From Candidatus Brocadia sinica JPN1 (GTDB lineage Bacteria; Planctomycetota; Brocadiia; Brocadiales; Brocadiaceae): DNA of 64,000 nt. Numbering within the stretch: the first letter of the stretch is position 1; each line of letters opens with the position of its first letter. Below are positions 1,254 to 19,311 of the stretch, piece by piece. The notes beneath the pieces are model-generated. The model was given only the letters and a program-made list of their open reading frames with translations. It had not been told where the DNA came from and searched no databases. The translations under genes were made by a program, and so were the position numbers. The stretch covers positions 1,116,001-1,180,000 of the forward strand of contig NZ_BAFN01000001.1 in NCBI RefSeq assembly GCF_000949635.1, written 5' to 3'.

Positions 1254-2717
1254 CTATTTGAACAGAAGGGTGGCCTGCTGGGCTATTTCCATGACCCTGG
1301 AGGGGAAGATACCCAACTGAAGTGTGCCAACCACCGAGATGACGATGGCTGCAACGATCAAAGGAGAGATGGTGAGGGGAGTGAATTCCCGGGTGGATTC
1401 CTTCATGTACATAATTACCGTAATTCTGAGGTAATAGTACACGGAAATGACGCTGTTAATCACGCCAATCACTGCAAGTCCGACATACCCTGATTTTATG
1501 GCGGCGCTGAAGATGTAAAATTTTCCCACAAAACCTGCCATGGGCGGAACACCTGCCATGGAAAGCATGAAGAGCGTCATCGCTATGGCCAGAAGCGGGT
1601 GCTTAAAGCCCAATCCTGCGTAGTCGTTGATCTGTATGAATTCATCTCCCTTATGGCTCAGCACAATGACAATGGCGAATGCCCCGATATTCATGAAGGT
1701 GTATGCCAGGATGTAGAACAATGTGCCCGGCACACCCATATTGTTTGCAGACACCAGGGCAATCAGGAGATAGCCGGCATGGGCGATACTGGAATATGCC
1801 AGCATCCGTTTGATATTCGTCTGTGCGATGGCTACGATGTTTCCCATTGTCATGGTCAGTACGGCAAGGATGAAAATAACCTTTTGCCATTCGTAATGGG
1901 ACGACCCGAACGCGGTCATAAAGATGCGCAAAAAGGCGGCGAAGCCTGCAGCCTTGGGTCCTACAGACATAAAGGCCGTTATCGCCGTAGGCGCCCCTTC
2001 GTAGACATCGGGTACCCACGCATGGAAGGGTACAGAAGCGACCTTGAATCCAAGTCCAATGATTATCAACCCCATTCCCATAAGTAACAGGGGGTCAGAG
2101 ATGCCTCCCTTACCTGCAATAAAACCAGCGATTTGTCTAAGGTTGATCGTGCCTGTCGTACCGTAAATAGCGGAGATACCATAGAGCAAAAAGCCCGTGG
2201 CGAATGCACCCAGTAAAAAATATTTCAGAGACGCCTCGTTTGAGATGAGTTTTGACCGTTTAAAACCTGTCAGGATGTAAATACTGATGGACATGACCTC
2301 CAGGCCGATGTAAATGTTCAGCAAATCGGCCCCGGATGCCATCAGCATCATGCCTATGGTTGAAAACATGATAAGGGCATAATATTCCCCGTGGTTGATC
2401 TCCTCGCGTTTAATGTAACTGTGTGAAATCAGGACCGTAAGCCCTGTACTAAGCAGGAAGATAAAGTTAAAAAACAGGGAATAATTATCTATGGTAAAGG
2501 TTTCATGAAAAGAGAAGAGTGTCGTTCCTGTAGGATTTCTGGCAAAGATGGCAGCAGTGACAATACCCATCAATGACAGATAGGCAAGGAGGTTCTTCTC
2601 CCCCAATCTCCTTGAAGATAAGACATCCACCAGGAGCACAATCATGGCAAAACCTGCCAGGATCAGGATCGGCAGGATGCTCAGGACATTAAACGTCATT
2701 ATGGAAACATTTGTCAT
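1254..2717 (-). CDS. nuoN: NADH-quinone oxidoreductase subunit N
   Basis: A 487-residue polytopic antiporter-like subunit of complex I (Proton_antipo_M family), about 14 membrane segments, of normal length. Diagnostic stretches include VASVPFHAWVPDVYEGAPTA, with the conserved Lys/Trp region of the half channel, and IKRMLAYSSIAHAGYLL. It is the last gene of the operon that starts at nuoA. A 141-bp spacer separates it from nuoM, much longer than the other junctions. That spacer contains a short AT-rich direct-repeat stretch (TTTCGGATTTCG) that recurs near 21.6 kb. Downstream, in the gap to the convergent gene, CTTTTTCG (1142) and CGAAAAAG (1184) can pair around a long loop, only a weak terminator candidate. 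Confidence 0.95.
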   Translation of the reverse strand: MTNVSIMTFNVLSILPILILAGFAMIVLLVDVLSSRRLGEKNLLAYLSLMGIVTAAIFARNPTGTTLFSFHETFTIDNYSLFFNFIFLLSTGLTVLISHSYIKREEINHGEYYALIMFSTIGMMLMASGADLLNIYIGLEVMSISIYILTGFKRSKLISNEASLKYFLLGAFATGFLLYGISAIYGTTGTINLRQIAGFIAGKGGISDPLLLMGMGLIIIGLGFKVASVPFHAWVPDVYEGAPTAITAFMSVGPKAAGFAAFLRIFMTAFGSSHYEWQKVIFILAVLTMTMGNIVAIAQTNIKRMLAYSSIAHAGYLLIALVSANNMGVPGTLFYILAYTFMNIGAFAIVIVLSHKGDEFIQINDYAGLGFKHPLLAIAMTLFMLSMAGVPPMAGFVGKFYIFSAAIKSGYVGLAVIGVINSVISVYYYLRITVIMYMKESTREFTPLTISPLIVAAIVISVVGTLQLGIFPSRVMEIAQQATLLFK

Positions 2718-2858
2718 ATCATATTACCTTGCAATACGTTATTTTTCAGCAACTCTCGTCTGAATGTAAAATTATTTGTGATAAATCCGATTCCTTTGGG
2801 CTTTATTCATTGGAGTTTGTTTTGGGTTTCGGATTTCGAGCTTCGAATCTATTTTTCA

Positions 2859-4436
2859 CTACCACTCTGTTTTGGCCTCAGGGATTATGTCAATCTTTGG
2901 CGCAACATTTTTCGGTAATTGCCCCAGGTTGCTTTGCTTTTGTACCCCGGACACCATATCTGTCTTTTCTCCCGCCTTCTTTAAGAGGTGGTTCACCGAG
3001 GCATCCATCTTTCTCAGGAACGAGTTGGGATAGATGCCTATCCAGAAGATTATCATTATGATGGGGATCAGGATAGCAAGTTCCCGTTTGTTCATATCAG
3101 GTAATGTCTTATTTTCCTCGTGGGTTATTTCATGAAACATGACCCTTTGAAACATCCAGAGCATGTACACCGCCGCAAGGATAATGCCCGATGTTGCGAT
3201 GGATGCGTACAGCATGCGTGACTTGAATGTACCCACCAGAATGAGAAATTCCCCGACAAAGCCGTTTAATCCCGGCAATCCTATCGAGGATAGGGTAACG
3301 ATCATAAAGAAAGTGGCAAAGACCGGTATCCGTTTGGTTAAACCTCCAAAGTCCGCAATCATGCGTGTGTGTCTTCTTTCATACAGCATGCCGACTACCA
3401 GGAAGAGTGCCCCGGTGCTGAGACCATGATTAACCATTTGGGTAATACCACCCTCGATGCCCTGGATATTGAAGGCAAAGATGCCCAGCATGACAAATCC
3501 CAGGTGGCTCACGCTGGAATAGGCGACGAGTTTTTTCAGATCATCCTGCACCATGGAGACCAGGGCACCATAAATGATACCCACAATTGCCATCCATGAA
3601 ATTACCGGTATGAATGCATGACTTGCCTCCGGGAACAGCGGGAGGCAGAACCTGACAAATCCGTACGTTCCCATCTTTAAGAGTACCCCCGCCAGGATCA
3701 CACTTCCGGCTGTGGGCGCTTCCACGTGGGCATCCGGCAGCCACGTGTGAAAGGGAAACATGGGTACTTTAATGGCAAAGGCAAAGGCAAATGCCAGGAA
3801 TAACCAGAACTGAACGGCAAAAGACAGATCGAGCCGGTAAAATTCCAGGAGATTAAAGGTGTATTCTCCCGTTGCCCGATAATTCAGAAAATACAAGGCA
3901 ATGATGGCCAGGAGCATGAACACGCTGCCGGCCATGGTATAAAGAAAGAATTTTACGGCTGCGTAAATCCTCCTCGGCCCTCCCCAGACGCCAATGAGGA
4001 GATACATGGGAATGAGCATGAGTTCCCAGAACACATAAAACAAAAATACATCCAGGGAAATAAACACGCCAATCATGCCCGTCTCCAGCACCAGCATGGC
4101 AACCATGTATTCCCTCACGTTCCTGGCGACATGCCATGAGGCCAGGATGGCAAGAGGTGTGATAAAGGTTGTCAGGAGTATCAGAAAGAGGCTGATCCCA
4201 TCGATTCCAACATGGTAATGAATTCCAAAGGATGGGATCCACCGCAGTTTTTCGACAAACTGCATCTCATACGTACGCGCGTCAAAGGCAAAGTATAAGG
4301 GCAGGGAAATGAAAAATACCACTATGGATACTAACAGGGCTGTCGCCCGAATGAGTTCAGCCCTTCTTGAATCCATCGAAAGGATAAAGAATACCCCGAT
4401 GATCGGAAGAAAGGCTATAAGTGAAAGAATAGGCAT
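2859..4436 (-). CDS. nuoM: NADH-quinone oxidoreductase subunit M
   Basis: A 525-residue antiporter-like membrane subunit of complex I. It contains VPMFPFHTWLPDAHVEAPTA and the canonical second half-channel helix LKKLVAYSSVSHLGFV, plus GLPGLNGFVGEFLIL near the end. About 14 transmembrane helices span the protein and a soluble tail of roughly 45 residues ends it (GVQKQSNLGQLPKN...), slightly longer than in E. coli. The gene lies between nuoL and nuoN, but a 264-bp spacer with a nested palindrome separates it from nuoL, so transcript processing or attenuation there is possible. Confidence 0.95.
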   Translation of the reverse strand: MPILSLIAFLPIIGVFFILSMDSRRAELIRATALLVSIVVFFISLPLYFAFDARTYEMQFVEKLRWIPSFGIHYHVGIDGISLFLILLTTFITPLAILASWHVARNVREYMVAMLVLETGMIGVFISLDVFLFYVFWELMLIPMYLLIGVWGGPRRIYAAVKFFLYTMAGSVFMLLAIIALYFLNYRATGEYTFNLLEFYRLDLSFAVQFWLFLAFAFAFAIKVPMFPFHTWLPDAHVEAPTAGSVILAGVLLKMGTYGFVRFCLPLFPEASHAFIPVISWMAIVGIIYGALVSMVQDDLKKLVAYSSVSHLGFVMLGIFAFNIQGIEGGITQMVNHGLSTGALFLVVGMLYERRHTRMIADFGGLTKRIPVFATFFMIVTLSSIGLPGLNGFVGEFLILVGTFKSRMLYASIATSGIILAAVYMLWMFQRVMFHEITHEENKTLPDMNKRELAILIPIIMIIFWIGIYPNSFLRKMDASVNHLLKKAGEKTDMVSGVQKQSNLGQLPKNVAPKIDIIPEAKTEW

Positions 4437-4502
4437 AGATATTCGGTTATTTCAAAATTACCGTCGTTATTAATTTGATATTTAAAAAAATTTCATTCAG
4501 TA

Positions 4503-4586
4503 GGGTGGATTAAGGCACTGTCTTTTACGCCGAATCCACCTTTCCACATTTTTCTAAATGGTGGATTCGCTTCGCTTAATCCACCC
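4503..4586. repeat. Nested palindromic repeat (GGGTGGATTAAG type)
   Basis: Outer arms GGGTGGATTAAG (4503-4514) and CTTAATCCACCC (4575-4586) and inner arms CGAATCCACC (4531-4540) and GGTGGATTCG (4560-4569) pair perfectly. The element sits in the nuoL-nuoM spacer. It looks like a REP/MITE-type sequence and could fold as a large hairpin in the nuo transcript. Confidence 0.8.
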
Positions 4587-4700
4587 TCCCCGCTAATGAT
4601 CTTAACTTTTTCTATAACAAGATTAAAATCCCTTTACACCCAGTTTCTCATGCGGCTGAGCGCTTACAGCGAAGCCCATGCCACCCAGCCCAGTTCAACC

Positions 4701-6632
4701 TTACTTTCCCCTGCCCAATACCATAAATACGATAATAAAGATGCAACCAATCACAATATAAAAAGCATAATTGCGTATATATCCCGTTTGTAAGAGACGC
4801 AGGACATTGCCAATTCCCCCGACAAGACGGGCAATGCCGTTTACAGAACCGTCGATCATCCCGCTATCCACACGCTTCCATAATTGGACTGAGATTTTTT
4901 TTGTAGGGTTTACAAAGAGGGCATCGTACATTTCATCGACATAATATTTATTCAGCAGCAGTTTATAAATTACCCGGAACCGCCCTGCCAGTTTTCCGGG
5001 CAGTTCAGTTTTTTTCCTGTACATTTGATACGCAAGGAATATGCCCGCAAGCGCGATAGCTGTGGAAATGACCATCATCAGATAGGGAAGCCATGCGCTG
5101 TGGTGCACACCGGCTTCAGCTGCAGAACTTTCAGCGTGGCCATGCTCACCAAACACCGGCGACAAAAAGCCGGTGATGGCGCTTGCACCGGGGATGCCCA
5201 GGAATCCGCCAAAAAAGGAAAGTCCCGCAAGTATCATTAACGGCAGTGTCATATTTTTGGGGGATTCATGGAGATGTTCCATGGCATGGTGATCCACACG
5301 GGATTCACCGTGAAACGTCATAAATAGCAAACGGAACATATAAAAGGCCGTTAAAAAGGCCGCAAAAGCCCCAATCATCCAGTATATGAAGTTTCCGCGG
5401 ACAAGCGATTCCAATAAAATTTCGTCTTTGCTGAAGAATCCTGCAAAGGGCGGAATGCCGGCAATGGCAACAGTGCCGATCAAAAATGTCTTGTAGGTAA
5501 CGGGAATATGATGCCTCAGTCCACCCATCTTTCTCATGTCCTGTTCACCGGACAGAGCATGAATAACGCTGCCAGAACCCAGGAATAACAATGCCTTGAA
5601 AAATGCGTGGATCATAAGATGAAAGACGCCTGCCGTAAAAGCACCCACACCGCACGCCAGAAACATATATCCCAGCTGACTGATGGTGGAATACGCCAAT
5701 ACACGCTTGATGTCGTTTTGCACCAGCCCTATGGATGCCGCAAAGAGCGCCGTTCCTGCGCCAATACTTGCCACCACGGTCATGGTGAACGGGGATAACA
5801 GATACAGGACGTTGCAGCGTGCGATCATATAGACGCCCGCCGTTACCATCGTTGCCGCATGGATAAGCGCGCTGACAGGCGTTGGGCCTTCCATGGCATC
5901 GGGTAACCAGGTATACAGGGGTATCTGGGCAGACTTACCCGTTGCACCCATGAACAGGAGAAGGGTAATGATCGTTACCGTGAAGCTACCCACTTCGAAA
6001 TTTCCATGAGAAGCGGCACTGAATACCTCCGTAAAATCGATGCTATGGAAAGTCAGGAAGATAAGCATGATGCCCAGGGCAAAGCCGAAATCGCCAACCC
6101 GGTTGACCACGAAGGCCTTTTTGGCCGCATTTGAGGCAGACTTTTTTTCAAACCAGAAACCGATAAGCAGATATGAACACAACCCTACCGCTTCCCATCC
6201 AATGAACATAAGGAGAAAATTATTGCCCAAAACGAGCAACAGCATAGAGAAGGTAAACAGATTCAGGTAGCAAAAATAGCGGTGGTAACCTTTATCCTCA
6301 TGCATATAGCCAATCGAATAGATGTGGATAAGGAATCCCACCCCGGTAACGACAAGGATCATGAGTGAAGACAGGGGATCTACCTGCAGACCTGCAGCCG
6401 ATTTGAATGAGCCTGATTCAATCCAGCTAAAGAGATGTTTTTCAAACAACCTTTCGCCGGGGGGAAGCTGAAGGAGTCCGCAAAAGACAAGTATCGACAC
6501 AAAGAAGGAAAGGCCAATTGCCCCGCAGGCAATGTAGCCAACGGTTTCCTTGCGCAGCCTTTTACCGATAAGACCGTTGATGGCAGCCCCAATTAAGGGA
6601 AATACCAGGATCAGCGCGACAAGATTGAGCAT
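4701..6632 (-). CDS. nuoL: NADH-quinone oxidoreductase subunit L
   Basis: A 643-residue antiporter-like subunit of complex I, including the C-terminal lateral-helix region seen in NuoL but not in NuoM or NuoN. Recognisable motifs are MFIGWEAVGLCSYLLIGFW, KSAQIPLYTWLPDAMEGPTP, SALIHAATMVTAGVYMI and IKRVLAYSTISQLGYM. These hold the conserved Glu, Lys and His residues of the proton path. The first residues (MLNLVALILVFPLIGAAING) form helix 1. Only 7 bp separate it from nuoK, consistent with co-translation in the nuo operon. Confidence 0.96.
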   Translation of the reverse strand: MLNLVALILVFPLIGAAINGLIGKRLRKETVGYIACGAIGLSFFVSILVFCGLLQLPPGERLFEKHLFSWIESGSFKSAAGLQVDPLSSLMILVVTGVGFLIHIYSIGYMHEDKGYHRYFCYLNLFTFSMLLLVLGNNFLLMFIGWEAVGLCSYLLIGFWFEKKSASNAAKKAFVVNRVGDFGFALGIMLIFLTFHSIDFTEVFSAASHGNFEVGSFTVTIITLLLFMGATGKSAQIPLYTWLPDAMEGPTPVSALIHAATMVTAGVYMIARCNVLYLLSPFTMTVVASIGAGTALFAASIGLVQNDIKRVLAYSTISQLGYMFLACGVGAFTAGVFHLMIHAFFKALLFLGSGSVIHALSGEQDMRKMGGLRHHIPVTYKTFLIGTVAIAGIPPFAGFFSKDEILLESLVRGNFIYWMIGAFAAFLTAFYMFRLLFMTFHGESRVDHHAMEHLHESPKNMTLPLMILAGLSFFGGFLGIPGASAITGFLSPVFGEHGHAESSAAEAGVHHSAWLPYLMMVISTAIALAGIFLAYQMYRKKTELPGKLAGRFRVIYKLLLNKYYVDEMYDALFVNPTKKISVQLWKRVDSGMIDGSVNGIARLVGGIGNVLRLLQTGYIRNYAFYIVIGCIFIIVFMVLGRGK

Positions 6633-6639
6633 GCAGTTC

Positions 6640-6942
6640 CTACCATTTCATAATATTTATATCGTCAATGTTTACGGTTTCTTTATTCCTGAACACGGCT
6701 ACGATGATTGCCAAACCGACAGCGGCCTCGGCTGCGGCAACGGTCATGGTAAAAAATACAAATAATTGACCCTGCATGGAATTGAGGTAGTGGGCAAATG
6801 CCACAAACGACAGATTGACGGCGTTCAGCATGAGCTCGATACACATAAAGATTATGATCGCGTTCCTCCGTATCATGACACCTACAACACCAAGCGTAAA
6901 CAGGATTGCGCTCAGTACGAGATAGTGGGTGATGGTAATCAT
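6640..6942 (-). CDS. nuoK: NADH-quinone oxidoreductase subunit K
   Basis: A 100-residue three-helix membrane subunit of complex I. The second helix carries the conserved Glu in [17 protein letters not shown] and the third ends in the family signature [17 protein letters not shown], including the second buried Glu. Length matches NuoK proteins exactly. Its start codon overlaps the end of nuoJ by one base, a sign of translational coupling. Confidence 0.96.
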
Positions 6943-7451
6943 TATAGTTTCCTCTTTGCCAGCATAATAGCTCCGATAGCCGCTACGAACAGGAGAATAG
7001 ACGTTATCTCGAACGGCAGCAGATAATCAGTGAATAATACATTGCCGATCAGTTTGGTGTTTCCAATGCTATTGATGTAAGCAGTGGTATATTCACCTTG
7101 TTTTCCCTGAAGGAGTTTTGACCTGAGAACTATACAAATGACGGTGAACAAGGCTATTCCCATAAGAATAGCAGGTATCCTTTGAAACGGTAATGCGTTC
7201 TTTGCCTCTTCCTTAATGTTCAGGTTTAACAGCATGATTACAAAGAGGAAGAGCACCATAATCGCCCCTGCATAGACAATGATCTGAACAGCAGCAATGA
7301 ATTGCGCCTCAAGCAATATATAGAGCACCGCGATGCTGACCATGGTCTGAATAAGATATAAAGCGCCGAAGACGGGGTTTTTCTCAAAGATAAGATAAAC
7401 CGCAGTGGTTACAGCAACCGCAGCCATGATATAAAATAAATAGGCTTCCAT
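6942..7451 (-). CDS. nuoJ: NADH-quinone oxidoreductase subunit J
   Basis: A 169-residue, five-helix membrane subunit of complex I. The third helix carries the conserved [20 protein letters not shown] motif, which includes the pi-bulge Tyr, and [11 protein letters not shown] precedes it. It overlaps nuoK by one base. A 125-bp spacer containing a palindromic repeat separates it from the upstream nuoI. Confidence 0.95.
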
Positions 7452-7488
7452 AGAAATCTCAAGCTCCCATTGCCAAACAATCTGTCAT

Positions 7489-7534
7489 AACCAACCCCTC
7501 AATCCCCTCCTGAGAAGGGACTCAGGGGTTGGTT
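7489..7534. repeat. Palindromic repeat in the nuoI-nuoJ spacer
   Basis: Arms AACCAACCCCT (7489-7499) and AGGGGTTGGTT (7524-7534) pair around CCCCTCCTGAGAAGGG. This CCCCTC...GAGGGG type of hairpin recurs in several spacers of the window (for example near 19.4, 26.5 and 56.8 kb). Confidence 0.75.
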
Positions 7535-7576
7535 CGCTTAGCCCGCCCTACCGCAAACTCATTCCCTCTTGAATTT

Positions 7577-8014
7577 TTAGCCGATGATTCCCCCCGGCAA
7601 ATTCCTCTTTCTCGTGAGGTCTAATAATTTTTCCTTATCAAAGACGTCCTTGTTCTGATAGGTAGCCAATTCAAAGGTATCCCTGAGTATGATGGCTCTT
7701 ACCGGACAAGCCTCTTCACAATAGCCGCAGTAAATGCAGCGAAAGGCATCCAATTCATACATTTTGGGATACCTCCTGTGCGTTTCATCCTCGCCTCCCT
7801 CGACAGTGATGCACTGTGAAGGGCACACCTTTGCGCACAGGCCGCATGCGACACACTTTTCCCTTCCATCCTTTCCTATCTGCAATTCAGGCAGCCCTCG
7901 AAACCTTGCAGAGAGTTTTGGCCGTTCGTCAGGATACTGTATTGTGGCGCAGGTGCCCGGACTAAGAAATCGTTTGAGTGTGAGTATCAGACCTTTAATG
8001 AGCGGTAAAATCAT
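7577..8014 (-). CDS. nuoI: NADH-quinone oxidoreductase subunit I
   Basis: A 145-residue peripheral-arm subunit that carries clusters N6a and N6b. Eight cysteines are seen in two CxxCxxCxxxC(P) motifs: C54-C57-C60-C64 (CVACGLCAKVCP) and C93-C96-C99-C103 (CIYCGYCEEACP). The N-terminus has the usual hydrophobic/amphipathic helix and the RPKLSARFRG stretch. Its start lies one base after the nuoH stop. Length is normal for bacterial NuoI. Confidence 0.96.
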   Translation of the reverse strand: MILPLIKGLILTLKRFLSPGTCATIQYPDERPKLSARFRGLPELQIGKDGREKCVACGLCAKVCPSQCITVEGGEDETHRRYPKMYELDAFRCIYCGYCEEACPVRAIILRDTFELATYQNKDVFDKEKLLDLTRKRNLPGGIIG

Positions 8015-8015
8015 G

Positions 8016-9011
8016 CTATCCCTTCAGAACCATGATAAGTCCTGTAATTATGATATTGAGCAGCGAAAGCGGCAACAGAAACTTCCAGCCAAAATGCATT
8101 AATTGATCGTATCTGAGCCTTGGGAACGTTGACCGTATCCAGATAAAGAAAAACAAGCAGGCTGACAATTTTACCATGAACCATACCACCGGAGGTAAAA
8201 ATGGCCCCTGCCATCCGCCCAGGAAAAAGGTTACGGCAATTGCAGATACCGTGATCATGTTGGCATATTCTGCCATGAAGAACATGGCAAATTTCATACT
8301 GCTGTATTCCGTATGATATCCCGCCACCAGTTCTGACTCTGCCTCAGGAAGGTCAAACGGGCAGCGATTGACCTCGGCTATGGCGCTTATGGCATAAATA
8401 AAAAATCCGACTGGTTGTAAGACAATGTTCCATAATTTCGCCTGGGCATTGACAACATCCACCAGACTTAACGATTCGGTTAACATAACCACTCCGATGA
8501 GCGACAGCCCAAGGGTCAATTCGTAACTGATCATCTGAGCTGAAGACCGTATCCCGCCCAATAATGAGTATTTGTTGTTTGATGCCCAGCCAGCCATAAC
8601 AACGCCGTAAATACCTAAAGAGGACACGGCAAAAACGTAAAGGAACCCGATATTGATATCGGTAATTACCAGATCTACGCTGTATCCGAAGATCTTTACC
8701 TTGTCCCCGAAAGGGATGACGGCAAAGGTCATCAGGGCGGGAATCATGGCCATGGCGGGCGCCAGTATAAAAAGCAGTTTACTTGCCTTTTCCGGAATAA
8801 TATCTTCCTTGAACAGCAGCTTTATGCCGTCGGCAATGGGTTGCAACAACCCGTGAGGTCCAACACGCATCGGCCCCAGCCGCACCTGCATGTGCGCCAT
8901 GATCTTTCTTTCGAGCCAGATCATGGAGATAACCATAAGCTGGATCGCGCCAAATACCAGAAAGATCTTTATGCAGGCAATAATAAGGTATACAAGCGAC
9001 TCTGTATTCAT
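8016..9011 (-). CDS. nuoH: NADH-quinone oxidoreductase subunit H
   Basis: A 331-residue eight-helix subunit of complex I at the quinone pocket. Family signatures are WLERKIMAHMQVRLGPMRVGPHG and AEVNRCPFDLPEAESELVAGY, the acidic loop lining the quinone chamber. It directly follows the small desulforedoxin gene in the operon (stop at 9012, start at 9011). Confidence 0.96.
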   Translation of the reverse strand: MNTESLVYLIIACIKIFLVFGAIQLMVISMIWLERKIMAHMQVRLGPMRVGPHGLLQPIADGIKLLFKEDIIPEKASKLLFILAPAMAMIPALMTFAVIPFGDKVKIFGYSVDLVITDINIGFLYVFAVSSLGIYGVVMAGWASNNKYSLLGGIRSSAQMISYELTLGLSLIGVVMLTESLSLVDVVNAQAKLWNIVLQPVGFFIYAISAIAEVNRCPFDLPEAESELVAGYHTEYSSMKFAMFFMAEYANMITVSAIAVTFFLGGWQGPFLPPVVWFMVKLSACLFFFIWIRSTFPRLRYDQLMHFGWKFLLPLSLLNIIITGLIMVLKG

Positions 9012-9293
9012 TTAGTGAACGTTTGCCTCTTTCTGTTGCATCCTCTGGCCGCAACATTCCAAGATACCGGTCGTTTCAACGATAACATCTATCTCCTGTC
9101 CGCATACATTGCATCTGAATTTTACACCATCTTCAGGCTTATGATGTGCAGTTGTCCAGGTGGCCATCATTCCCCTGGCACCTACAAAGCGCATCTCCTG
9201 ACCGCAGCATACCAGCACTCCGAAGCCTTCTTTGGTAACAACTACTTTTTGTCTGCAGATTTCGCAAAAATATGTTTGCCCTTTTTTCGCCAT
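9012..9293 (-). CDS. Tandem desulforedoxin-domain protein within the nuo operon
   Basis: A 93-residue protein made of two desulforedoxin-type (Dfx) domains. Each has the spacing CxxC-x15-CC: C10, C13, C29, C30 and C61, C64, C80, C81, which in this family bind one Fe(Cys)4 centre each. The repeats begin YFCEICRQKV and FRCNVCGQEI and end CCGQEM and CCGQRM. The ATG at 9293 follows the nuoG stop by a few bases and is preceded by GGAAACAGGG. An earlier in-frame start at 9344 would overlap nuoG and is less likely. The gene sits exactly between nuoG and nuoH, suggesting a redox or assembly partner of the electron-input arm. That role is inference. A superoxide reductase core domain is absent. Confidence 0.85.
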   Translation of the reverse strand: MAKKGQTYFCEICRQKVVVTKEGFGVLVCCGQEMRFVGARGMMATWTTAHHKPEDGVKFRCNVCGQEIDVIVETTGILECCGQRMQQKEANVH

Positions 9294-9297
9294 ATAT

Positions 9298-11943
9298 TTA
9301 CCCTGTTTCCTTGCAAATTTTGACGGGGGTGTACACCCTGTCACGCAGGAGATTTACCGGTACCCACTCATAATCTTCAGAAACAAAAATGGTGCCTTCG
9401 GGTGTTTTGCCGGCAACCTTTGCCTGGAGTTTTATCTTATTTTGCATAGATTCAATAACAATCATATCCCCGTCCTGGATATCCATTTTCCGGGCATCTT
9501 TTCTGTTTATTTCCACAAAACATTCCGGGGCAACCAGAGTAAGGGACTTTGAATGCCGGGAAAAAGCGCCCTGATGATTCAAACTGGCGCCGGTAAGCAG
9601 GATAAAAGGGAAATCCTTTCTCCTTATGATACTGAAAGATTCGGGTTGAATTATTTCAAACTTATATTTTACCGGTCTTTTCTTATCATAAACAAAAGAT
9701 ACCCATTGGAATTCTTTCCTCTTCAAACGGTCATAATTAACACCTGCATACAGGGGGGCTATGCTTCCTATTTCACTCAATATCTCTTTCACGGATGCGT
9801 ATGAATAGGATTGTCCCATCTTTTTGGCAAGGTCACAAATAATTTGCCAATCTGGTCTGGCGTCTCCCACTGGTGGTATAGCTTTGTTTAGCCGTTGTAC
9901 GGTCATCCCCATATTGGTGAAGGTTCCTTCCCGTTCGGCATAGGTAACTGCAGGGAGGACGACATCTGCCAATTGCGCGGTTTCCGTCAGGAATGTATCC
10001 TGGACAACAAGAAAGCCTACCCTTCTCAACGCCTCCCGGATATCTTTGCCGTAGGGATAATGCATGACGGGATTTTCTCCCATAACGTAGAGCGCTTTTA
10101 ATTTTCCATTGAGTGCAAGATCAATAACATTCGGGGAGTCTTTCTGGAAAATATCGTCAGCAAGTTTTACGCCCCATAATTTTCCCACCTTTTCCCTGCC
10201 GGATGTATCGTGGATATCACCGTATCCCGGAAAGAATCCGGGGACAACCCCCATATCATTTACACCCTGAGAATTGTTATGGGATCTTGAAAACAAAACC
10301 GAAATCTTACCAGGACTTGTCTTTTCATCATGAGCGGCGTTGATAAGTACGCAGAGGTTCATCAAGGTTCTTATGGTGATTTCTCCCAGAGGGTCTTCTT
10401 CAATGTCTTTACCGCAAATGATACAGCAATTTCCCGGTTTTGTTAATAATGCGGATACACTTCTCAAGGTTTCTTCAGAAATGCCGGTTGATTGAGAAGC
10501 ATCCCTTACACTGAACTTATCTAATGAGGAACACAGTTCATGAAAATTGTCCGCCGATATCTCTGCCTTCTTTAAGTCAACCAGGTTTTCATCAATAACG
10601 ATCTTCATCAAGGCGTTCATGAATATGGCCTGGCTTCCCAAGGTATATTGTAAACGGATATCATTTTTGGCCACGCTATTGAATTGAACGTTTCTTATAT
10701 TGGCAACAATGAGATTGGCGTTGTTCATCCTTATAGCTTTTCGGGCCATGCTTCCGGCTACAGGATGAGCCTCAGTCACGTCTGCACCAAAGAAGAATAA
10801 GGTATTTGCATTCTCAATTTCTTTCAATGATGCTGACGCAATCCCGTTCACAACAGATTGATACATCAGCCTGTTCAGATACGGTGATTTTATATTGGAC
10901 AGGTTGTCAATGTGGTTCGTTCCCAGCACAGACCGGCAGAATTTCTGGAAGAGATAGTTGTCCTCATTGGTGCATTTTTCAGAACCGATGCCTCCTACCG
11001 ATTTCCCGCCATGTTCCTGTATCACTTGCTGAAATCTTTTTGATACGTAATCAATGGCTTCATTCCACGAGACGGGATAGAATTCACCGTTTTTTCTGAT
11101 TAAAGGAGTCTTTATGCGTTCAGGAGAATGGATAAATTCATGACCGAATCTGCCTTTAACGCAGAGGTTACCCTCGTTTATTCCCAAACGGTCATGGGAT
11201 GTGATACGCCTCACACTTTCCGTCTTGGTATTTACCACGACCGTACAGCCAACGGAACAGTATGGACAAATCGTAGGCGTGTTTTTGAATTCCCATGGTC
11301 TGCCCCTGAACCCTAAGGTTCTATCCTGCCAGGCTCCGGTTGGACACACTGCGACACAGCCACCGCAGAAACTACACTCCAGCGGTCTGTCAAAGGCGGT
11401 GCCAATGACCGTTTTAAAGCCGCGGTTTTGGAAGTCGATGGCGCTGACCCCTTCAATCTCCTTGCAGGCGCTTACACACCGGCCGCACAAAATACACCGG
11501 TTCCGGTTTAATTCTAAAACCGGATTATCCCGGATCACCGGGTGATGCATCCTCACGGTCTTGAATCTGCCAGGACCCAGATTCAGTTCGCTGGTAATGT
11601 TTTGCAATCCGCATTCACCGGATTTGTCACAGGTAGGACAAGAGAGTTCATGATGGGCCAATAGATATTCCATAACGGACTTTCGGTACCGGATTACTTT
11701 CTGCGTATTTACTTTTACAATCATTCCCTCAGATACGGGGTGCGCACAGGCAAACCGGTGTCCGGTTCTTTTCCGTTCAGTGACTTCTACAAAACAAAGC
11801 CTGCAACCCCCAAATTGTGAGAGTTTGGGATGGTAGCACAGTCCGGGGACATAAATATCGTTGTCCAGGGCTGCCTGGAATATATTCGTACCTTCAGGGG
11901 CAACGATAGGTTTATCATCAATAACAAGGTGTATGATATTCAT
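9298..11943 (-). CDS. nuoG: NADH-quinone oxidoreductase subunit G, formate-dehydrogenase-like
   Basis: An 881-residue iron-sulfur protein of the electron-input arm. Visible clusters: [2Fe-2S] C35, C47, C50, C66; the His-ligated cluster H98, C102, C105, C111; two ferredoxin-type clusters C150/C153/C156/C160 and C190/C193/C196/C200; and a [4Fe-4S] site of molybdopterin enzymes, C226/C229/C233/C261. The rest is a full molybdopterin oxidoreductase domain and a C-terminal dinucleotide-binding domain. At the place where formate dehydrogenases carry the catalytic Cys/Sec (…DHCARLUHSP), this protein has GTNHIDNLSNIKSP, so formate oxidation is unlikely. The ATG overlaps the nuoF stop by 4 bases. Confidence 0.94.
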   Translation of the reverse strand: MNIIHLVIDDKPIVAPEGTNIFQAALDNDIYVPGLCYHPKLSQFGGCRLCFVEVTERKRTGHRFACAHPVSEGMIVKVNTQKVIRYRKSVMEYLLAHHELSCPTCDKSGECGLQNITSELNLGPGRFKTVRMHHPVIRDNPVLELNRNRCILCGRCVSACKEIEGVSAIDFQNRGFKTVIGTAFDRPLECSFCGGCVAVCPTGAWQDRTLGFRGRPWEFKNTPTICPYCSVGCTVVVNTKTESVRRITSHDRLGINEGNLCVKGRFGHEFIHSPERIKTPLIRKNGEFYPVSWNEAIDYVSKRFQQVIQEHGGKSVGGIGSEKCTNEDNYLFQKFCRSVLGTNHIDNLSNIKSPYLNRLMYQSVVNGIASASLKEIENANTLFFFGADVTEAHPVAGSMARKAIRMNNANLIVANIRNVQFNSVAKNDIRLQYTLGSQAIFMNALMKIVIDENLVDLKKAEISADNFHELCSSLDKFSVRDASQSTGISEETLRSVSALLTKPGNCCIICGKDIEEDPLGEITIRTLMNLCVLINAAHDEKTSPGKISVLFSRSHNNSQGVNDMGVVPGFFPGYGDIHDTSGREKVGKLWGVKLADDIFQKDSPNVIDLALNGKLKALYVMGENPVMHYPYGKDIREALRRVGFLVVQDTFLTETAQLADVVLPAVTYAEREGTFTNMGMTVQRLNKAIPPVGDARPDWQIICDLAKKMGQSYSYASVKEILSEIGSIAPLYAGVNYDRLKRKEFQWVSFVYDKKRPVKYKFEIIQPESFSIIRRKDFPFILLTGASLNHQGAFSRHSKSLTLVAPECFVEINRKDARKMDIQDGDMIVIESMQNKIKLQAKVAGKTPEGTIFVSEDYEWVPVNLLRDRVYTPVKICKETG

Positions 11944-13793
11944 TTTATTGCCAGAAAATTACATTTTTCATAACAGAGATTGCACTTAATGCATTTTTCT
12001 TTATTGATAAAAGCGACCTCCGTAGTACTCCCGCTAATTGCTTTTACCGGGCAGTTGCGAATACATGCCTGGCACTTGGTACACTTTTCCGGGGACACTT
12101 CATACTTGTGAAGGGCGACACACGTAGCAGTTGGACAAGTCTTATCGCGGATGTGCGCAATATATTCATCCTTAAAATACCGGATAGTGGATTTTACAGG
12201 ATTTGGCGCGGATTGTCCGAGACCACAAAGGGACATCACCTTGATCTCATCACTCATTTGTTCCAGCACTTCCAGATCCTTTTCTTCACCCTGCCCCATG
12301 GTAATGCGGGTGAGGATATCCAGCATAAGGGTAGTGCCAATCCGGCAGGGCGGACATTTTCCGCATGATTCATTGGCACAAAAGTTCATAAAAAACCGGG
12401 CCATCTCCACCATACAGGTAGTGTCGTCAACAACCACAAAACTTCCCGAACCCATCATTGCACCTGCCCCAACAAGCGATTCGTAATCAATTGGTGAATC
12501 CAGGAGGGACTCAGGAAGACATCCGCCAGAAGGCCCCCCGATCTGCACTGCCTTGAATTTTTTCTTTTTCGGAATACCGCCGCCCATGTCAAAGACAATT
12601 TGTCTGATCGTAGTGCCCATAGGGACTTCAACAAGACCGGCATTTTTTACTTTCCCGGTCAGGGAAAAGATTTTCGTTCCCTTGCTGTGTTCTGTACCAA
12701 TCCGGGAATACCAATCCGCACCTTTATTGATAATGAACGGTACATTAGCAAAGGTCTCTACATTGTTCAAACACGTCGGTTTGTCCCATAAACCCGCTTC
12801 TACAGATTGAGGAGGTCTTGTGCGGGGCATACCCCGTTTCCCTTCAATGGAATTTTGCAGTGCGGTCGATTCACCGCAGACAAAGGCGCCAGCCCCTTCC
12901 TTTACATAGATTTCCAGACTGTACCCGCTGTTTAGGATATTTTCACCCAGAAAGCCGCGCCTATTGGCTTCTTCAATGGTGTGTTTTAATCGTTTGACCG
13001 CCAGTGGATATTCAGCGCGAACATAGATGTAACCACTCGTAGCATTAATGGCATATCCCGCGATAATCATGCCTTCCAGGACGGCATGCGGATCCCCTTC
13101 CAAAAGGCTCCTGTCCATAAAGGCACCCGGGTCTCCTTCGTCGGCATTGCACAGGACAAACTTTTCTTCGGCGGAATACTTGGCACAGGATGCCCACTTT
13201 TCACCTGTTGGAAAACCACCACCTCCCCGGCCCCTGAGACCCGATTTGCTTATTTCATCAATCACGGCCTTCGGAGTCATGGTCCTGAGTACTTTTTCGA
13301 GCGCCGTATATCCGCCCCGCGCAATATATTCATCGATACTATCGGGGTCAATATATCCGCAATTCCTGAGGATGTGTTTTTTTTGACCCTTATTCATCTC
13401 CAGGTCGTCAAAAAAAGGCAACCCTTCATAAGGAATCACTGTTTTGTCGTCCAGGTACATCTGCGACATGACGAGTTTTTTTACCGCCTCTCCCTTTCCC
13501 ACGTGTTCTTCTAATATTTGTGGCACCATGGTGGTTTTTACATTTCCGTAAGTAACGCGTGTGCGGCCAGGAAAGATTACGTCCATGAGCACTTCGTGCG
13601 CACACATGCCGATACAACCAGTAGGCACTATGTCTGCATCGAGTTTTTGTTTTCCCAGCTCTTGTTCAACGCTTTTCAACACATTCCTGGCGCCAGCGCC
13701 CAAACCGCAAGAGGCCATGCCAATAATTATTTGCGGTTTTTGTGGATTGAATTTTTGTTGCTGGTGTATCGTTTCGTTACTAACCGTAGTCAT
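11940..13793 (-). CDS. nuoF: NADH-quinone oxidoreductase subunit F, long HndC-like form
   Basis: A 617-residue flavoprotein that oxidises NADH. It is longer than E. coli NuoF because of an N-terminal thioredoxin-like domain (residues 20-110; Cys at 29, 60, 64) and a C-terminal pair of [4Fe-4S] motifs (CTKCQACIRNCP and CIKCNLCYEKC). The core shows the NADH/FMN site (GLRGRGGGGFPTGEKW, GAGAFVCGESTAL) and the N3 cluster motif ESCGKCPPCRIG with a later Cys. This layout is that of HndC/HydB of NADP-reducing and bifurcating hydrogenases. It overlaps both nuoE and nuoG by 4 bases (ATGA), so the three are tightly coupled. Confidence 0.95.
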   Translation of the reverse strand: MTTVSNETIHQQQKFNPQKPQIIIGMASCGLGAGARNVLKSVEQELGKQKLDADIVPTGCIGMCAHEVLMDVIFPGRTRVTYGNVKTTMVPQILEEHVGKGEAVKKLVMSQMYLDDKTVIPYEGLPFFDDLEMNKGQKKHILRNCGYIDPDSIDEYIARGGYTALEKVLRTMTPKAVIDEISKSGLRGRGGGGFPTGEKWASCAKYSAEEKFVLCNADEGDPGAFMDRSLLEGDPHAVLEGMIIAGYAINATSGYIYVRAEYPLAVKRLKHTIEEANRRGFLGENILNSGYSLEIYVKEGAGAFVCGESTALQNSIEGKRGMPRTRPPQSVEAGLWDKPTCLNNVETFANVPFIINKGADWYSRIGTEHSKGTKIFSLTGKVKNAGLVEVPMGTTIRQIVFDMGGGIPKKKKFKAVQIGGPSGGCLPESLLDSPIDYESLVGAGAMMGSGSFVVVDDTTCMVEMARFFMNFCANESCGKCPPCRIGTTLMLDILTRITMGQGEEKDLEVLEQMSDEIKVMSLCGLGQSAPNPVKSTIRYFKDEYIAHIRDKTCPTATCVALHKYEVSPEKCTKCQACIRNCPVKAISGSTTEVAFINKEKCIKCNLCYEKCNFLAIK

Positions 13794-14299
13794 TTAGGAA
13801 ACCCTGACTCTTTTATCTCTTTTATGACCGTTGCAACGGTGTCCGGGGCTAGTTTTCCGTGGATATCTTCATCCACCATCATAACAGGCGCCAGCGAACA
13901 TGCACCCAGACATGCAACTTCTTCTAACGTGAATACATTATCCTTTGTTGTCATACCCGTGGAAACTTCTAATGTCTGACTCAGTTTTTCTAAGACCTTC
14001 TTTGCCCCTTTCACATGGCACGCAGTCCCGCAACACATCTTAATAATATGCTGTCCGCGCGGTTTTAAGTGAAACTGGGCGTAAAAAGTGGCAACTCCCA
14101 CAATTTCATGCGTGCTAATATGCAATCTTTCTGCAATAAGGTCAACGATGGGTTCGGGCAGATAACCATATTCGGCTTGCACCATTTGCAAAATAGGGAT
14201 CACTGCTCCTCTTGCGTTTTTATATTTCTCCAGTATCTTTTCTATCTTTGAAAGATCTACAGTTTCACTTCGCGCAGATTGTTCTTTTCTGGTATTCAT
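13790..14299 (-). CDS. nuoE: NADH-quinone oxidoreductase subunit E
   Basis: A 169-residue thioredoxin-fold [2Fe-2S] protein that carries cluster N1a next to the FMN of NuoF. The ligands are C89-x4-C94 (CCGTACHVKGAK) and C130-x3-C134 (CLGACSLAP). The helical N-terminal domain contains ILQMVQAEYGYLP and the conserved GVATFYAQF. Length is normal. It is followed by nuoF with a 4-base overlap, and a 71-bp gap separates it from nuoD. Confidence 0.95.
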   Translation of the reverse strand: MNTRKEQSARSETVDLSKIEKILEKYKNARGAVIPILQMVQAEYGYLPEPIVDLIAERLHISTHEIVGVATFYAQFHLKPRGQHIIKMCCGTACHVKGAKKVLEKLSQTLEVSTGMTTKDNVFTLEEVACLGACSLAPVMMVDEDIHGKLAPDTVATVIKEIKESGFPK

Positions 14300-14370
14300 G
14301 GTAAATTATGCTGCCACACGTAAAAGAGTTATAAAGGCAGTTTTGCACTATCATTCGTCATATTCAGATT

Positions 14371-15561
14371 TTAACGATCAATTTCTCCCAAAACAATATC
14401 TAAACTTCCAATGGTAGCGACGACGTCGGGAAGTAATCTGCCCTCTACCATTTTCGGTAATGCCTCCAGATTGACAAAAGAAGGAGGCCGTATTTTCAAT
14501 CGGTAAGGATTGCTGGAACCATCACTTACAATATAAAAACCCAATTCCCCCTTAGGGGCCTCAATGCTGGAGTAGACCTCTCCTTTCGGTGGATGAATAC
14601 CGTGCATGATGAGTTTAAAATGGCTGATCATGGATTCCATATTTGTCTCTACGTCCTCTTTTGGAGGCAAGGTAACATTCGGTATTCTTGCTATAAAATC
14701 CCCTTTAGGGAGAATATTTAGAGACTGACGAACGATACTATTGCTCTGACGCATCTCTTCTATGCGCACACGATACCGATCGTATACATCTCCTTTTTTC
14801 CCCAAAGGAACGGCAAAATGATATGTATCGTAGCCGGAATAAGGTTCTGACTTCCTGATATCCCAATTAACTCCTGATCCCCGTAAACTCGGGCCGCTAA
14901 GGCCATAATCAATGGCATCTTCAGCGGAAATAACACCGACACCGACCGTACGCTTTTTCCATATAGGATTGTCCGTCAGGAGCGTTTCATACTCATTGAG
15001 CCGCGCGGGAAATTCAGTGACAAATTTGTGGGTTTTTTCCAGGAATCCGCCGGGTAAATCGCGTGACACGCCACCTACCCTGATATAGGAGAGGTGCATC
15101 CTCGCCCCTGAAACCATTTCAAAGATATCATAAATTTCTTCGCGTTCCCGGAAGCAGTAAAAGAACACGGTCATAGCGCCAATATCCAGGGCGTGGGTTG
15201 CCAGCCACAACAGATGAGAGGCAATCCTGGTAAGTTCACAGAGAAGCACGCGGATATGTTTGGCCCTTTCAGGAACTTCAATATTAAGTAATTTCTCAAC
15301 TGCAAGGGCATAAGCCAGGTTGTTTGAGAAAGGGGCTACATAATCCAACCGGTCTGTGAGGGGAATACACTGATGATATGTTCTATATTCCGCAAGTTTT
15401 TCCACACCCCGATGGAGGAATCCCACGTGCGGCACTGCCTTTACGATCATCTCGCCATCCAGTTCCAGCAAAAGCCTCAGGACACCGTGTGTGCTGGGAT
15501 GTTGCGGCCCCATATTGATGGTCATCAGGTGGGTCGTAGTTGCTGTAGCGGTTTCTGTCAC
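14371..15561 (-). CDS. nuoD: NADH-quinone oxidoreductase subunit D
   Basis: A 396-residue 49-kDa-type subunit, related to the [NiFe]-hydrogenase large subunit, which forms the quinone site with NuoB and NuoH. It starts with the conserved MGPQHPSTHGVLRLLLELDGE and later has RIASHLLWLATHALDIGAMT and GSGVNWDIRKSEPYSGYD. The hydrogenase NiFe ligands are absent, as in all NuoD. It is separate from nuoC rather than fused, and its start overlaps the nuoC stop by 4 bases. Confidence 0.96.
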   Translation of the reverse strand: MTETATATTTHLMTINMGPQHPSTHGVLRLLLELDGEMIVKAVPHVGFLHRGVEKLAEYRTYHQCIPLTDRLDYVAPFSNNLAYALAVEKLLNIEVPERAKHIRVLLCELTRIASHLLWLATHALDIGAMTVFFYCFREREEIYDIFEMVSGARMHLSYIRVGGVSRDLPGGFLEKTHKFVTEFPARLNEYETLLTDNPIWKKRTVGVGVISAEDAIDYGLSGPSLRGSGVNWDIRKSEPYSGYDTYHFAVPLGKKGDVYDRYRVRIEEMRQSNSIVRQSLNILPKGDFIARIPNVTLPPKEDVETNMESMISHFKLIMHGIHPPKGEVYSSIEAPKGELGFYIVSDGSSNPYRLKIRPPSFVNLEALPKMVEGRLLPDVVATIGSLDIVLGEIDR

Positions 15562-16058
15562 GCCTCACCCCTTCGATAGGTGTCCCGGAGTGTGGCGGGT
15601 TGTCTTCCATCCACAGGATAGTCTTTTCGTAAGGGATGCCCTTCAAAATCTTCCGGCGTGAGAATTTTTCTCAGATCGGGGTGACCGACAAACTTAATAC
15701 CAAACATGTCATATGTCTCTCTTTCATGCCAATCAGCCGTCTTCCAGATGCCCGTTACCGTTGGTATGCAGGATTCATCTGACGGAACAGACACCTTGAT
15801 GCGCAGGCGATGATTTTTCTGTATAGAATAGAGATGGTACACCACCTCAAAAACATCATCTGTTTGAACCCGGTCAACACCACAGAGATCCGACAAAAAA
15901 TTAAAATCAAGCTCCTCATTTTCTTTCAGGAACCTGGCAATATCACCAATACAATCCCTCTCTACTATAAGGGTTAATTCATTACGAAATGTATGAGAAC
16001 CCAGTATTGCCTCTGGAAAACGTGTTTTTATGAATGCGAGTATAGAGTCATTATCCAT
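15558..16058 (-). CDS. nuoC: NADH-quinone oxidoreductase subunit C
   Basis: A 166-residue 30-kDa-type subunit of the peripheral arm. The signature WHERETYDMFGIKFVGHPDLRK is followed by LTPEDFEGHPLRKDYPVDGR. I place the start at the ATG at 16058 (MDNDSILAFIK), just after the nuoB stop, because an in-frame upstream ATG at 16139 would overlap nuoB by about 75 bases and add residues without family resemblance. It overlaps nuoD by 4 bases. Confidence 0.94.
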   Translation of the reverse strand: MDNDSILAFIKTRFPEAILGSHTFRNELTLIVERDCIGDIARFLKENEELDFNFLSDLCGVDRVQTDDVFEVVYHLYSIQKNHRLRIKVSVPSDESCIPTVTGIWKTADWHERETYDMFGIKFVGHPDLRKILTPEDFEGHPLRKDYPVDGRQPATLRDTYRRGEA

Positions 16059-16063
16059 GGTTT

Positions 16064-16552
16064 TTATAAAGCTTCTTTTCCAATCTTTTTCTGTATTTCC
16101 ATGATAGCGTGGATCAATGCCTCCGGTCTCGGTGGACATCCGGGGAGATATACATCTACAGGCATGACCTGATCCAGTCCCTGAACAACGCTGTAAGTGT
16201 TATAGACACCACCGGAGACTGCACAGGCGCCCATAGCGATAACCCACTTGGGCTCCGGCATCTGATCGTAAATTTTTCTTGCCACAGATGCCATTTTATA
16301 CGTAAGCGTACCGGCAACAATCATCAGGTCTGATTGTCTCGGTGAAAACCGAAAGACCTCTGCGCCGAATCGGGCAAGATCGTGACGGGGTGCAACCGCA
16401 GCCATCATTTCTATGGCACAGCAGGCCAATCCAAACGGCATGGGCCAGAGAGAGGACTTGCGTGCCCAATTTACCATGGTGGTTAAGGTTGTGGTAAGAA
16501 TGTTATCACCCAAGTGGCTTTCTAGTCCCATTCCAACCCTCCCCTTTTCCAT
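16064..16552 (-). CDS. nuoB: NADH-quinone oxidoreductase subunit B
   Basis: A 162-residue subunit that holds cluster N2 beside the quinone site. The four ligands are visible: the adjacent pair C44-C45 in [13 protein letters not shown]110 in [10 protein letters not shown] and C139 in [12 protein letters not shown]. Length is usual. The annotated ATG overlaps the end of nuoA by 31 bases; a second in-frame ATG seven codons later (16531) is an alternative start. Confidence 0.95.
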
Positions 16553-16875
16553 AGATAAAGATAGCAGACGAGCAGTATACCGATAAAGATGAGCATTTCA
16601 ATAAACCCAAAGAGCTTGAGTGACTTAAATGCCACTGCCCACGGGTAAAGAAAAATGACCTCAACGTCAAAGAGAACAAAAAACATGGCGATGAGATAGA
16701 ATTTTACCGAGAAACGTTCCCGCGCCGAACCTACCGGATCAATACCACACTCATACGGTGAAAGCTTTTCTGCGGTGGGTTTCCGCCTTCCCAAAATCGC
16801 CGAAAGCCCTATATTGGTAACAGCAAAGCCTCCAGCTATAATAAATAATATTAGTATAGGTAAATATTGCGTCAT
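16522..16875 (-). CDS. nuoA: NADH-quinone oxidoreductase subunit A
   Basis: A 117-residue three-helix membrane subunit, first gene of the operon. It shows the family motif [11 protein letters not shown], with the loop Cys next to the quinone chamber, and [12 protein letters not shown]. There is no room for a Shine-Dalgarno sequence: the TATAAT of a strong promoter ends seven bases upstream of the ATG, which suggests that the mRNA begins at or near the start codon. Confidence 0.95.
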
Positions 16876-17014: not shown

Positions 17015-17689
17015 TTAACTAAATATTTTGGTAGAGTAGAAAAATGGAGCCTCGAATAAAGAGATTGCCCTCGTTGGAATACCGCGATCCATAAGCCAGG
17101 TGCGCCGGAATTTCCCATACTGCTTTTCGATCCGATCCAGAAATTTCTCCAGTGTCGCGGTATCTCTTGTATTCCCGGGATATACTTCGTAGGCCACGGG
17201 AAATCCTTCCGGCGTCAACACCAATGCCACTACCACTTGAACGCAATCCGAACGTTTGTCCCGGCTGTACCCAAACCGTTTTTTACCCCCAGATCCCGTC
17301 GATGGCGGATCACTTTCAAAATACGTGCTCGTCAAATCATACAGCAGCACATCATACTTCGCGCCAAGCAGCTTGCCCCATTGCCCTTTTAAAAAACCAA
17401 ACAGATCGTCGCGATGCTCAAGCAGCAAATCCAAACAACGATACGGCTTGTCCTTCTGTGCCAGCGAATCATCTTCCCCCGTCAGTTGTTTTACCTTGTT
17501 CTTCTCACCCCAAAGTGCCTCTATCGTCCGAACCCATCCCGCCCGTTGAGTATCATTGAATTCTTCCAAATAGAGAACTTGCCGCTGCACCACTCTTCTT
17601 CCGCTGACCCGGCGGTTCTCTACAACGCTCCAATACCGATGGGTTTTTTCCCATCTTTCGTCCGTGATTTTTCTCGGAGAAACATGCAA
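17015..17689 (-). pseudogene. IS1634-like transposase fragment
   Basis: A 224-residue N-terminal part of an IS4-superfamily (IS1634-like) transposase, the enzyme that cuts and pastes an insertion sequence. It begins like family members (HRYWSVVENRRVSGRRVVQRQVLYL) and carries two catalytic aspartates, in YDLTSTYFE and in DRGIPT. Immediately after DRGIPT the reading frame departs from the family (AISLFEAPFFYSTKIFS) and ends, so the last half with the catalytic Glu is missing. I saw no terminal inverted repeats. It is a remnant at the left border of the accessory region. Confidence 0.8.
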
Positions 17690-18716: not shown

Positions 18717-19025
18717 TTACAAGGCCGCCGTCAATGGTCGTACTTCACGTGCTACCTGTTCGGATAATAAATCTTCAGCAATATCCATATCATACCTGCT
18801 TTGCAAGTTCATCCAGTAGCGGGGGCTTTGGCCAAAATAACGCCCTAAACGCAAAGCAAGCTCCGCCGTTACCGGGCGTTTGCCATGTACCACGTGATTG
18901 ATCCGCATAGCGGGCACACCTAAATCCTGTGCCAGCCGGTATTGTGATATGTTTAATTCATCGAGTAATTCTTTCAGATATACCCCGGGGTGCACGGGTG
19001 CAATACGGTGCTTAGCCATACTCAA
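18717..19025 (-). CDS. higA: HigA-type antitoxin
   Basis: A 102-residue XRE-family DNA-binding antitoxin that neutralises HigB and represses the pair. The opening HPGVYLKELLDELNISQYRLA and the helix-turn-helix AQDLGVPAMRINHVVHGKRP, followed by TAELALRLGRYFGQSPRYWMNLQ, are hallmarks of the HigA addiction-module antidote family. Its start is four bases after the higB stop, the usual toxin-first order of higBA. It looks intact in a region otherwise full of broken genes. Confidence 0.9.
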   Translation of the reverse strand: MSMAKHRIAPVHPGVYLKELLDELNISQYRLAQDLGVPAMRINHVVHGKRPVTAELALRLGRYFGQSPRYWMNLQSRYDMDIAEDLLSEQVAREVRPLTAAL

Positions 19026-19029
19026 CTCC

Positions 19030-19311
19030 TTAATGATAATCGACGACTTCTACCTGTTCTGCGTTACCGCTGCGCCACTCAAAACAAATTCGCCACCGAT
19101 CGTTGATTCTGATACTATACTGTCCCTTACGTTCTCCCTTCAACGCCTCAAGCCGATTGGATGGTGGTAAACGTAAATCTTTAAGATGAACGGCCGCATC
19201 AATCGCGTTGAGCTTAACAAAGACGCGCATTTGAATTTCGCGTGGAAACTTTCGTGAATATGCGCGGTTAAACATTTTTTGAGTCTCACCGCAACGGAAC
19301 GATTTTATCAC
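19030..19311 (-). CDS. higB: HigB-type mRNA interferase toxin
   Basis: A 93-residue RelE-superfamily toxin that would cut mRNA on the ribosome. The C-terminal block LRLPPSNRLEALKGERKGQYS and IRINDRWRICFEW is typical of HigB, including the basic and aromatic residues used in catalysis. The family N-terminus IKSFRC supports the GTG start at 19311. No Shine-Dalgarno sequence is possible: the -10 box ends six bases upstream, so this looks like a leaderless mRNA. It is transcribed before higA. Confidence 0.9.
   Translation of the reverse strand: MIKSFRCGETQKMFNRAYSRKFPREIQMRVFVKLNAIDAAVHLKDLRLPPSNRLEALKGERKGQYSIRINDRWRICFEWRSGNAEQVEVVDYH

Follow-up and report, generated by a model that had tools for sequence, protein, structure and literature searches.

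A tandem desulforedoxin gene inside the complex I operon of anammox bacteria, possibly encoding an electron carrier for oxygen defence

Why does Candidatus Brocadia sinica encode a small two-domain desulforedoxin in the middle of the operon for complex I? The gene, named dsr2 here, lies between nuoG and nuoH in the window, which is the whole 64,000-nucleotide stretch of DNA analysed in this work. Its product is the 93-residue protein MAKKGQTYFCEICRQKVVVTKEGFGVLVCCGQEMRFVGARGMMATWTTAHHKPEDGVKFRCNVCGQEIDVIVETTGILECCGQRMQQKEANVH, for which an initial annotation had offered three roles: an electron outlet, a guard against oxidative stress, and an assembly factor for complex I. The operon and the parts of the gene are laid out as follows, with the stop codon included in the coordinates of dsr2.

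1254-16875, minus strand: whole nuo operon, in the order A-B-C-D-E-F-G-dsr2-H-I-J-K-L-M-N
13790-14299, minus strand: nuoE, assigned in part by synteny
11940-13793, minus strand: nuoF, 617 aa, with a C-terminal 2x[4Fe-4S] domain
9298-11943, minus strand: nuoG, 881 aa, upstream neighbour of dsr2, 4 nt from the dsr2 ATG
9012-9293, minus strand: dsr2, two-domain (tandem) desulforedoxin gene, 93 aa
9189-9290, minus strand: desulforedoxin domain 1, residues 2-35 (C10, C13, C29, C30), a PF06397 match
9138-9188, minus strand: inter-domain linker, residues 36-52, modelled with low confidence and holding the invariant MMxxWT (residues 42-47, at 9153-9170)
9036-9137, minus strand: desulforedoxin domain 2, residues 53-86 (C61, C64, C80, C81), a PF06397 match
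8016-9011, minus strand: nuoH, downstream neighbour of dsr2, gap of 0 nt

The two CxxC-x15-CC sites that had been read in the 93 residues are both exact, at C10/C13/C29/C30 and C61/C64/C80/C81. The tight packing described earlier is also real: the gaps are 4 nt and 0 nt, with the TAA stop of dsr2 directly abutting the ATG of nuoH, and the strand, which the initial annotation had not named, is the minus strand. A chance open reading frame is ruled out by homology and synteny, with orthologs in 43 genomes including the source genome. A promoter scan of the nuo operon gave 21 promoter-like sites against 17.5 expected, which is chance level. Just 5' of nuoA there is a DDE transposase ORF (PF01609; window 17015-17689, minus strand), and at 18717-19311 on the minus strand a HigB-like toxin (PF05015) adjoins an HTH_3 protein, the two forming a probable HigBA toxin-antitoxin pair.

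The protein belongs to the desulforedoxin family by its ligand pattern, by profile scores above the cut-off and by its fold, the last taken from a predicted model. Pfam PF06397 (Desulfoferrod_N) matches it twice (E 2.8e-19; 68.9 bits for the whole protein, 43.8 and 34.7 bits for the single matches, cut-off 23), as does TIGR00319 desulf_FeS4 (E 2e-14), and these two PF06397 matches are the only ones in the whole 4.08 Mb genome. It is neither a superoxide reductase or desulfoferrodoxin nor a rubredoxin: profile searches gave no match to PF01880, the superoxide reductase catalytic domain, or to the rubredoxin profile PF00301, and TIGR00320 reached 40.9 bits, far under its cut-off of 146.9. The Pfam search matched no DNA-binding or enzymatic domain in dsr2 either. 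The AlphaFold2 model (mean pLDDT 76, domains about 75-89) shows two small beta domains but leaves the linker between them poorly defined, and the placement of the domains relative to each other is unreliable. One of these domains superposes on the desulforedoxin of Desulfovibrio gigas (1dxg) at 0.4 A over 36 residues with 50% identity, and Foldseek matches the same pair with probability 1.00, TMt 0.97 and an E value of 0.12, which is that high because the domain is so short. Each unit probably holds one Fe(Cys)4 site. Cys4 knuckles can also bind Zn, there are Zn-substituted desulforedoxin structures among the PDB relatives, and Zn might take the place of Fe in vivo.

The nearest solved relatives are desulforedoxin itself (1cfw/1dxg) and the N-terminal domain of desulfoferrodoxins. 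D. gigas desulforedoxin (PF06397/TIGR00319) has the same 36-residue fold and the same CxxC-x15-CC ligands (phmmer E 7.8e-7), but it is a single domain, whereas dsr2 carries two units in one chain, joined by the conserved MMxxWT linker and encoded in a complex I operon. Desulfoferrodoxin (TIGR00320, PF01880) shares its N-terminal desulforedoxin domain with dsr2, which lacks the superoxide reductase domain. A precedent for pairing a desulforedoxin centre with rubrerythrin is the desulforubrerythrin of Campylobacter jejuni (PMC7482061), although there the centre is fused to the enzyme, while dsr2 is a separate protein and lies beside rubrerythrins in one clade only. No paper linking desulforedoxin to anammox or to nuoG was found in the open-licence literature.

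The distribution of the gene was surveyed in 75 genomes of the class; each stands for a single species, and many are metagenome assemblies. The two-domain desulforedoxin is present in 43 of the 75, comprising 29 of 33 Brocadiaceae (f1) and 14 of 17 Scalinduaceae (f4), and its presence at the nuo locus of close relatives, on which the initial annotation had staked its claim, was found in Brocadiaceae and most Scalinduaceae. Of the seven genomes of these two families without it, four (G008, G016, G017, G048) give no NuoH hit either, two (G011, G057) have NuoH cut at a contig edge, and one (G061) has a nuo operon that lacks nuoE, F and G. The gene is likewise absent from f2 (which we take to be Bathyanammoxibiaceae-like), f3, f5 (presumably Anammoxibacter-like) and the other families of the class that were examined, including other Brocadiales families. 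A sample of about 350 genomes from elsewhere in the phylum (392 drawn) did not yield it either, the one exception being a different tandem desulforedoxin in G213, and a search of genome contigs with patterns made from dsr2 returned only anammox-type loci. A strict tie to anammox metabolism was rejected, since f2 and f5 genomes bear hydrazine synthase yet lack dsr2, and a recent insertion was rejected because the gene is present in two families.

The gene is ancient and constrained. All eight cysteines are invariant in 36 aligned orthologs, together with M42, M43, W46, T47, P53 and G56, and between families it keeps 69-73% identity in the operons of G055 and G046, where the Nuo subunits keep 50-79%. 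It stands 3' of nuoG in 30 of the 30 first loci with a visible nuo flank, and nuoH follows where the contig reaches; the order nuoG-dsr2-nuoH holds at every nuo junction examined, the exceptions being one relocated Scalindua clade and one operon without nuoEFG. The end of dsr2 overlaps the start of nuoH by 4-8 nt in several operons (L108, L109, L115, L119). One genome (G030) has a PIN-domain ORF between dsr2 and nuoH (L117 10256-10630), so the junction tolerates inserts; the linkage is also interrupted by a PDZ-domain ORF in L118 and by a gap of 1.2 kb in L108. In G019 the C-terminal half of dsr2 occurs in partial extra copies, at L118 (G019:C187) 1-198, beyond the PDZ-domain ORF, and at G019:C4:6174-6281.

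The relocated clade is the most informative part of this survey for function. In six Scalinduaceae genomes (G038, G041, G056, G058, G059, G060) the ortholog, at 62-66% identity and with its cysteines and MMxxWT kept, lies away from nuo and directly 3' of an NADH:rubredoxin oxidoreductase (NROR)-type flavoprotein. On its own 3' side follow a 77-aa rubredoxin-plus-desulforedoxin protein, two rubrerythrins and a 40-aa desulforedoxin, and beyond that, in most of the loci, a P-type ATPase and CcoNO, with a cytochrome c' in between in 4 of the 6. A superoxide-reductase-like gene with a TAT signal stands 5' of the NROR gene in five loci, those whose contig reaches that far. The nuo junction could be seen in five of the six genomes (G041, G058, G038, G060, G059), and in those five nuoG and the nuoH behind it are about 24 to 157 nt apart with no desulforedoxin between them, the rest of the operon being intact where seen. 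Seven nuo-linked Scalinduaceae have the NROR-rubredoxin/desulforedoxin-rubrerythrin group without dsr2. The gene is therefore not always encoded with nuo: the six relocated genomes carry the nuo operon or related genes elsewhere, and the nuo operons of f2 and f5 have no dsr2.

In a tree built from seven Nuo proteins (2,301 columns) the relocated clade falls within Scalinduaceae, with nuo-linked Scalindua as its sister group (support 1.000), and the relocated dsr2 proteins are themselves monophyletic with support 0.994. Because nuo-linked genomes surround the relocated clade in the complex I tree, the nuo position is taken as ancestral and the direction of the move as from nuo to the stress operon, and one single move would be the simplest history. 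A reading of the MMxxWT linker as a nuo-specific docking motif was rejected, since the motif survives relocation. Positions fixed in nuo-linked genomes and changed in the relocated clade were counted against the control direction (6 vs 2 in NuoH, 3 vs 1 in NuoF, 3 vs 3 in NuoG; NuoN was left out, one sequence being truncated). With these small counts the test is weak; no subunit stands out, and NuoE/F/G/I have no special burst of fixed changes.

Based on these two contexts, the best explanation, in which we have moderate confidence, is that dsr2 is a small soluble rubredoxin-like carrier running from an NADH dehydrogenase (NuoEFG or NROR) to reductases of peroxide, superoxide and O2, and is not an obligatory subunit of complex I. 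We infer its electron source and its electron acceptors from gene neighbourhood and chemistry. The protein would take electrons from an NADH-oxidising enzyme and would hand them singly to non-haem iron enzymes that reduce peroxide, superoxide or O2/NO, namely rubrerythrins, superoxide reductase and flavodiiron proteins. In Brocadiaceae and most Scalinduaceae it would be co-transcribed with complex I, and the proposed electron source in these nuo-linked genomes is the NADH module NuoEFG; in the relocated Scalindua clade NROR would be the source, with rubrerythrins nearby.

Both contexts pair dsr2 with an NADH-oxidising enzyme and the second adds reductases, and together with two further genomes, G040 and G213, this is why we read it as a one-electron carrier for oxygen defence. 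In G040 (Bathyanammoxibiaceae-like) a single desulforedoxin stands 16 nt 3' of a rubrerythrin. The distant planctomycete G213 has an independent tandem desulforedoxin of 86 aa and of the CxxC-x16-CC type (L262 2697-2957), beside a thioredoxin-reductase-like NAD(P)H flavoprotein (L262 3021-4055). Linkage to both an NADH reductase and peroxide or superoxide reductases is seen in the relocated clade, and the linkage in the window is to complex I only. Desulforedoxin centres usually lie near 0 mV (PMC7482061), and at that potential flow from NADH would be downhill, whereas donation to NAD+ or ferredoxin would be uphill. Published anammox models accept rubredoxin as the electron donor to both superoxide reductase and rubrerythrin (PMC10156729). 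The role proposed for dsr2 is the one given to rubredoxin (PF00301) with NROR in a published scheme, that of a one-electron carrier from an NADH reductase to oxygen-defence enzymes (PMC10156729), although rubredoxin has another cysteine pattern and belongs to another family, and the NADH dehydrogenase linked to dsr2 in most species is complex I. Of the three roles first offered, the Scalindua relocation thus favours the electron outlet and the oxidative-stress guard, combined into one, and leaves the assembly factor less favoured.

Some observations count against a carrier. Ordinary rubredoxins are present in the same genomes, which leaves the need for a second carrier unexplained. Many Brocadiaceae hold both NROR and a nuo-linked dsr2, which also speaks against the carrier, and being encoded side by side does not by itself prove that electrons pass from NuoEFG to dsr2. 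The inventory of the source genome (listed completeness 100) speaks for the carrier instead: it includes a single superoxide reductase, two rubredoxins and ten matches to the rubrerythrin family, and a profile search with PF18267 found no recognisable NROR. G001, G002, G009 and G018 (completeness 99-100) lack NROR as well. Published surveys of oxygen defence in anammox bacteria name NROR, rubredoxin, rubrerythrin and superoxide reductase, and the dsr2 protein does not appear in the passages searched; they find no NROR in Kuenenia and list one for Jettenia, Scalindua and two Brocadia species (PMC10156729). The presence of NROR is thus patchy across genomes and does not mirror the position of dsr2 exactly.

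The strongest competing idea, though an unlikely one in our judgement, is that dsr2 is a genuine accessory subunit of anammox complex I, docked near NuoG/NuoH/NuoI with a structural or intramolecular electron-transfer role. Apart from the relocated clade, its position is kept wherever a nuo junction was seen, with a spacing of 0-8 nt or an overlap with nuoH in several genomes, and it is kept between families about as well as the core subunits (about 70% vs 50-79%). It is also missing from the one Scalinduaceae operon that lacks nuoEFG. Such a joint loss agrees with a functional tie to the NADH module, though deletion of all these genes as one block would look no different. In that operon (L100, G061:C154, 8226-8274) nuoD is followed by nuoH after 48 nt, and NuoEFG-like proteins of this genome are encoded on other contigs. 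Against a subunit, the relocated clade retains its nuo operon with no burst of fixed changes in NuoE/F/G/I while its dsr2 sits in a stress operon, the persistence of the linker motif there means that nuo linkage does not explain the motif, and it is not obvious where a centre near 0 mV would fit into the low-potential chain of NuoEFG.

Two other proposals seem improbable to a similar degree. In one, dsr2 would help to assemble complex I, deliver metal to it or protect its clusters, perhaps as a chaperone that binds Zn or Fe. The synteny with nuo and the affinity of Cys4 knuckles for Zn agree with this, but dsr2 moved into an NROR/rubrerythrin operon while nuoEFG stayed, and f5 and f2 genomes assemble nuo without it. 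The other makes it a positional hitchhiker, a stress carrier expressed with nuo by chance and having no functional link to complex I. The gene did leave nuo without visible consequence for complex I, and its neighbours in other genomes are those of a stress operon; the tight linkage across two families and the translational overlap in several genomes argue the other way, yet some operons (L117, L118, L108) carry inserts. That dsr2 is a sensor of O2, NO or redox state or an iron store, and not a carrier, is very improbable, for although Fe(Cys)4 sites react with NO and O2 and anammox cells handle NO, the protein has no DNA-binding or enzymatic domain and its neighbours are redox enzymes, not regulators.

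The soluble-carrier reading has a bolder form, which we offer only tentatively and consider doubtful: complex I of most anammox bacteria may double as an NADH:desulforedoxin oxidoreductase, in which a twin desulforedoxin is the dedicated exit for electrons of the NADH module, which then serve to detoxify peroxide, superoxide or NO, and one Scalindua lineage may have swapped this branch for a separate NROR. If so, complex I would have a side exit for electrons that ties respiration directly to oxygen defence, which would help to explain how strict anaerobes in wastewater treatment survive pulses of O2. The relocation in Scalindua is a natural experiment and makes the carrier idea directly testable.

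NuoF and NuoG had been called hydrogenase-style, and the description is partly right for the window, where NuoF is extended at its C-terminus by a ferredoxin domain with two clusters and NuoG has a full set of molybdopterin-oxidoreductase domains. As a predictor of the desulforedoxin it fails, however: f5 has a similar NuoF and no desulforedoxin, so the hydrogenase style alone does not predict dsr2, and a tie of dsr2 to the extended NuoF alone was rejected because the f5 protein has a similar extra ferredoxin domain. The f5 operons have an ORF of ~320 aa between nuoG and nuoF (L101 8146-9108, L102 7903-8856), which in L101 gives GAF domain matches and a weak PAS match. One Scalindua nuo operon (L147, G038:C19, 8791-12513) has two different nuoF genes in tandem, their products 74% and 66% identical to the NuoF of the window.
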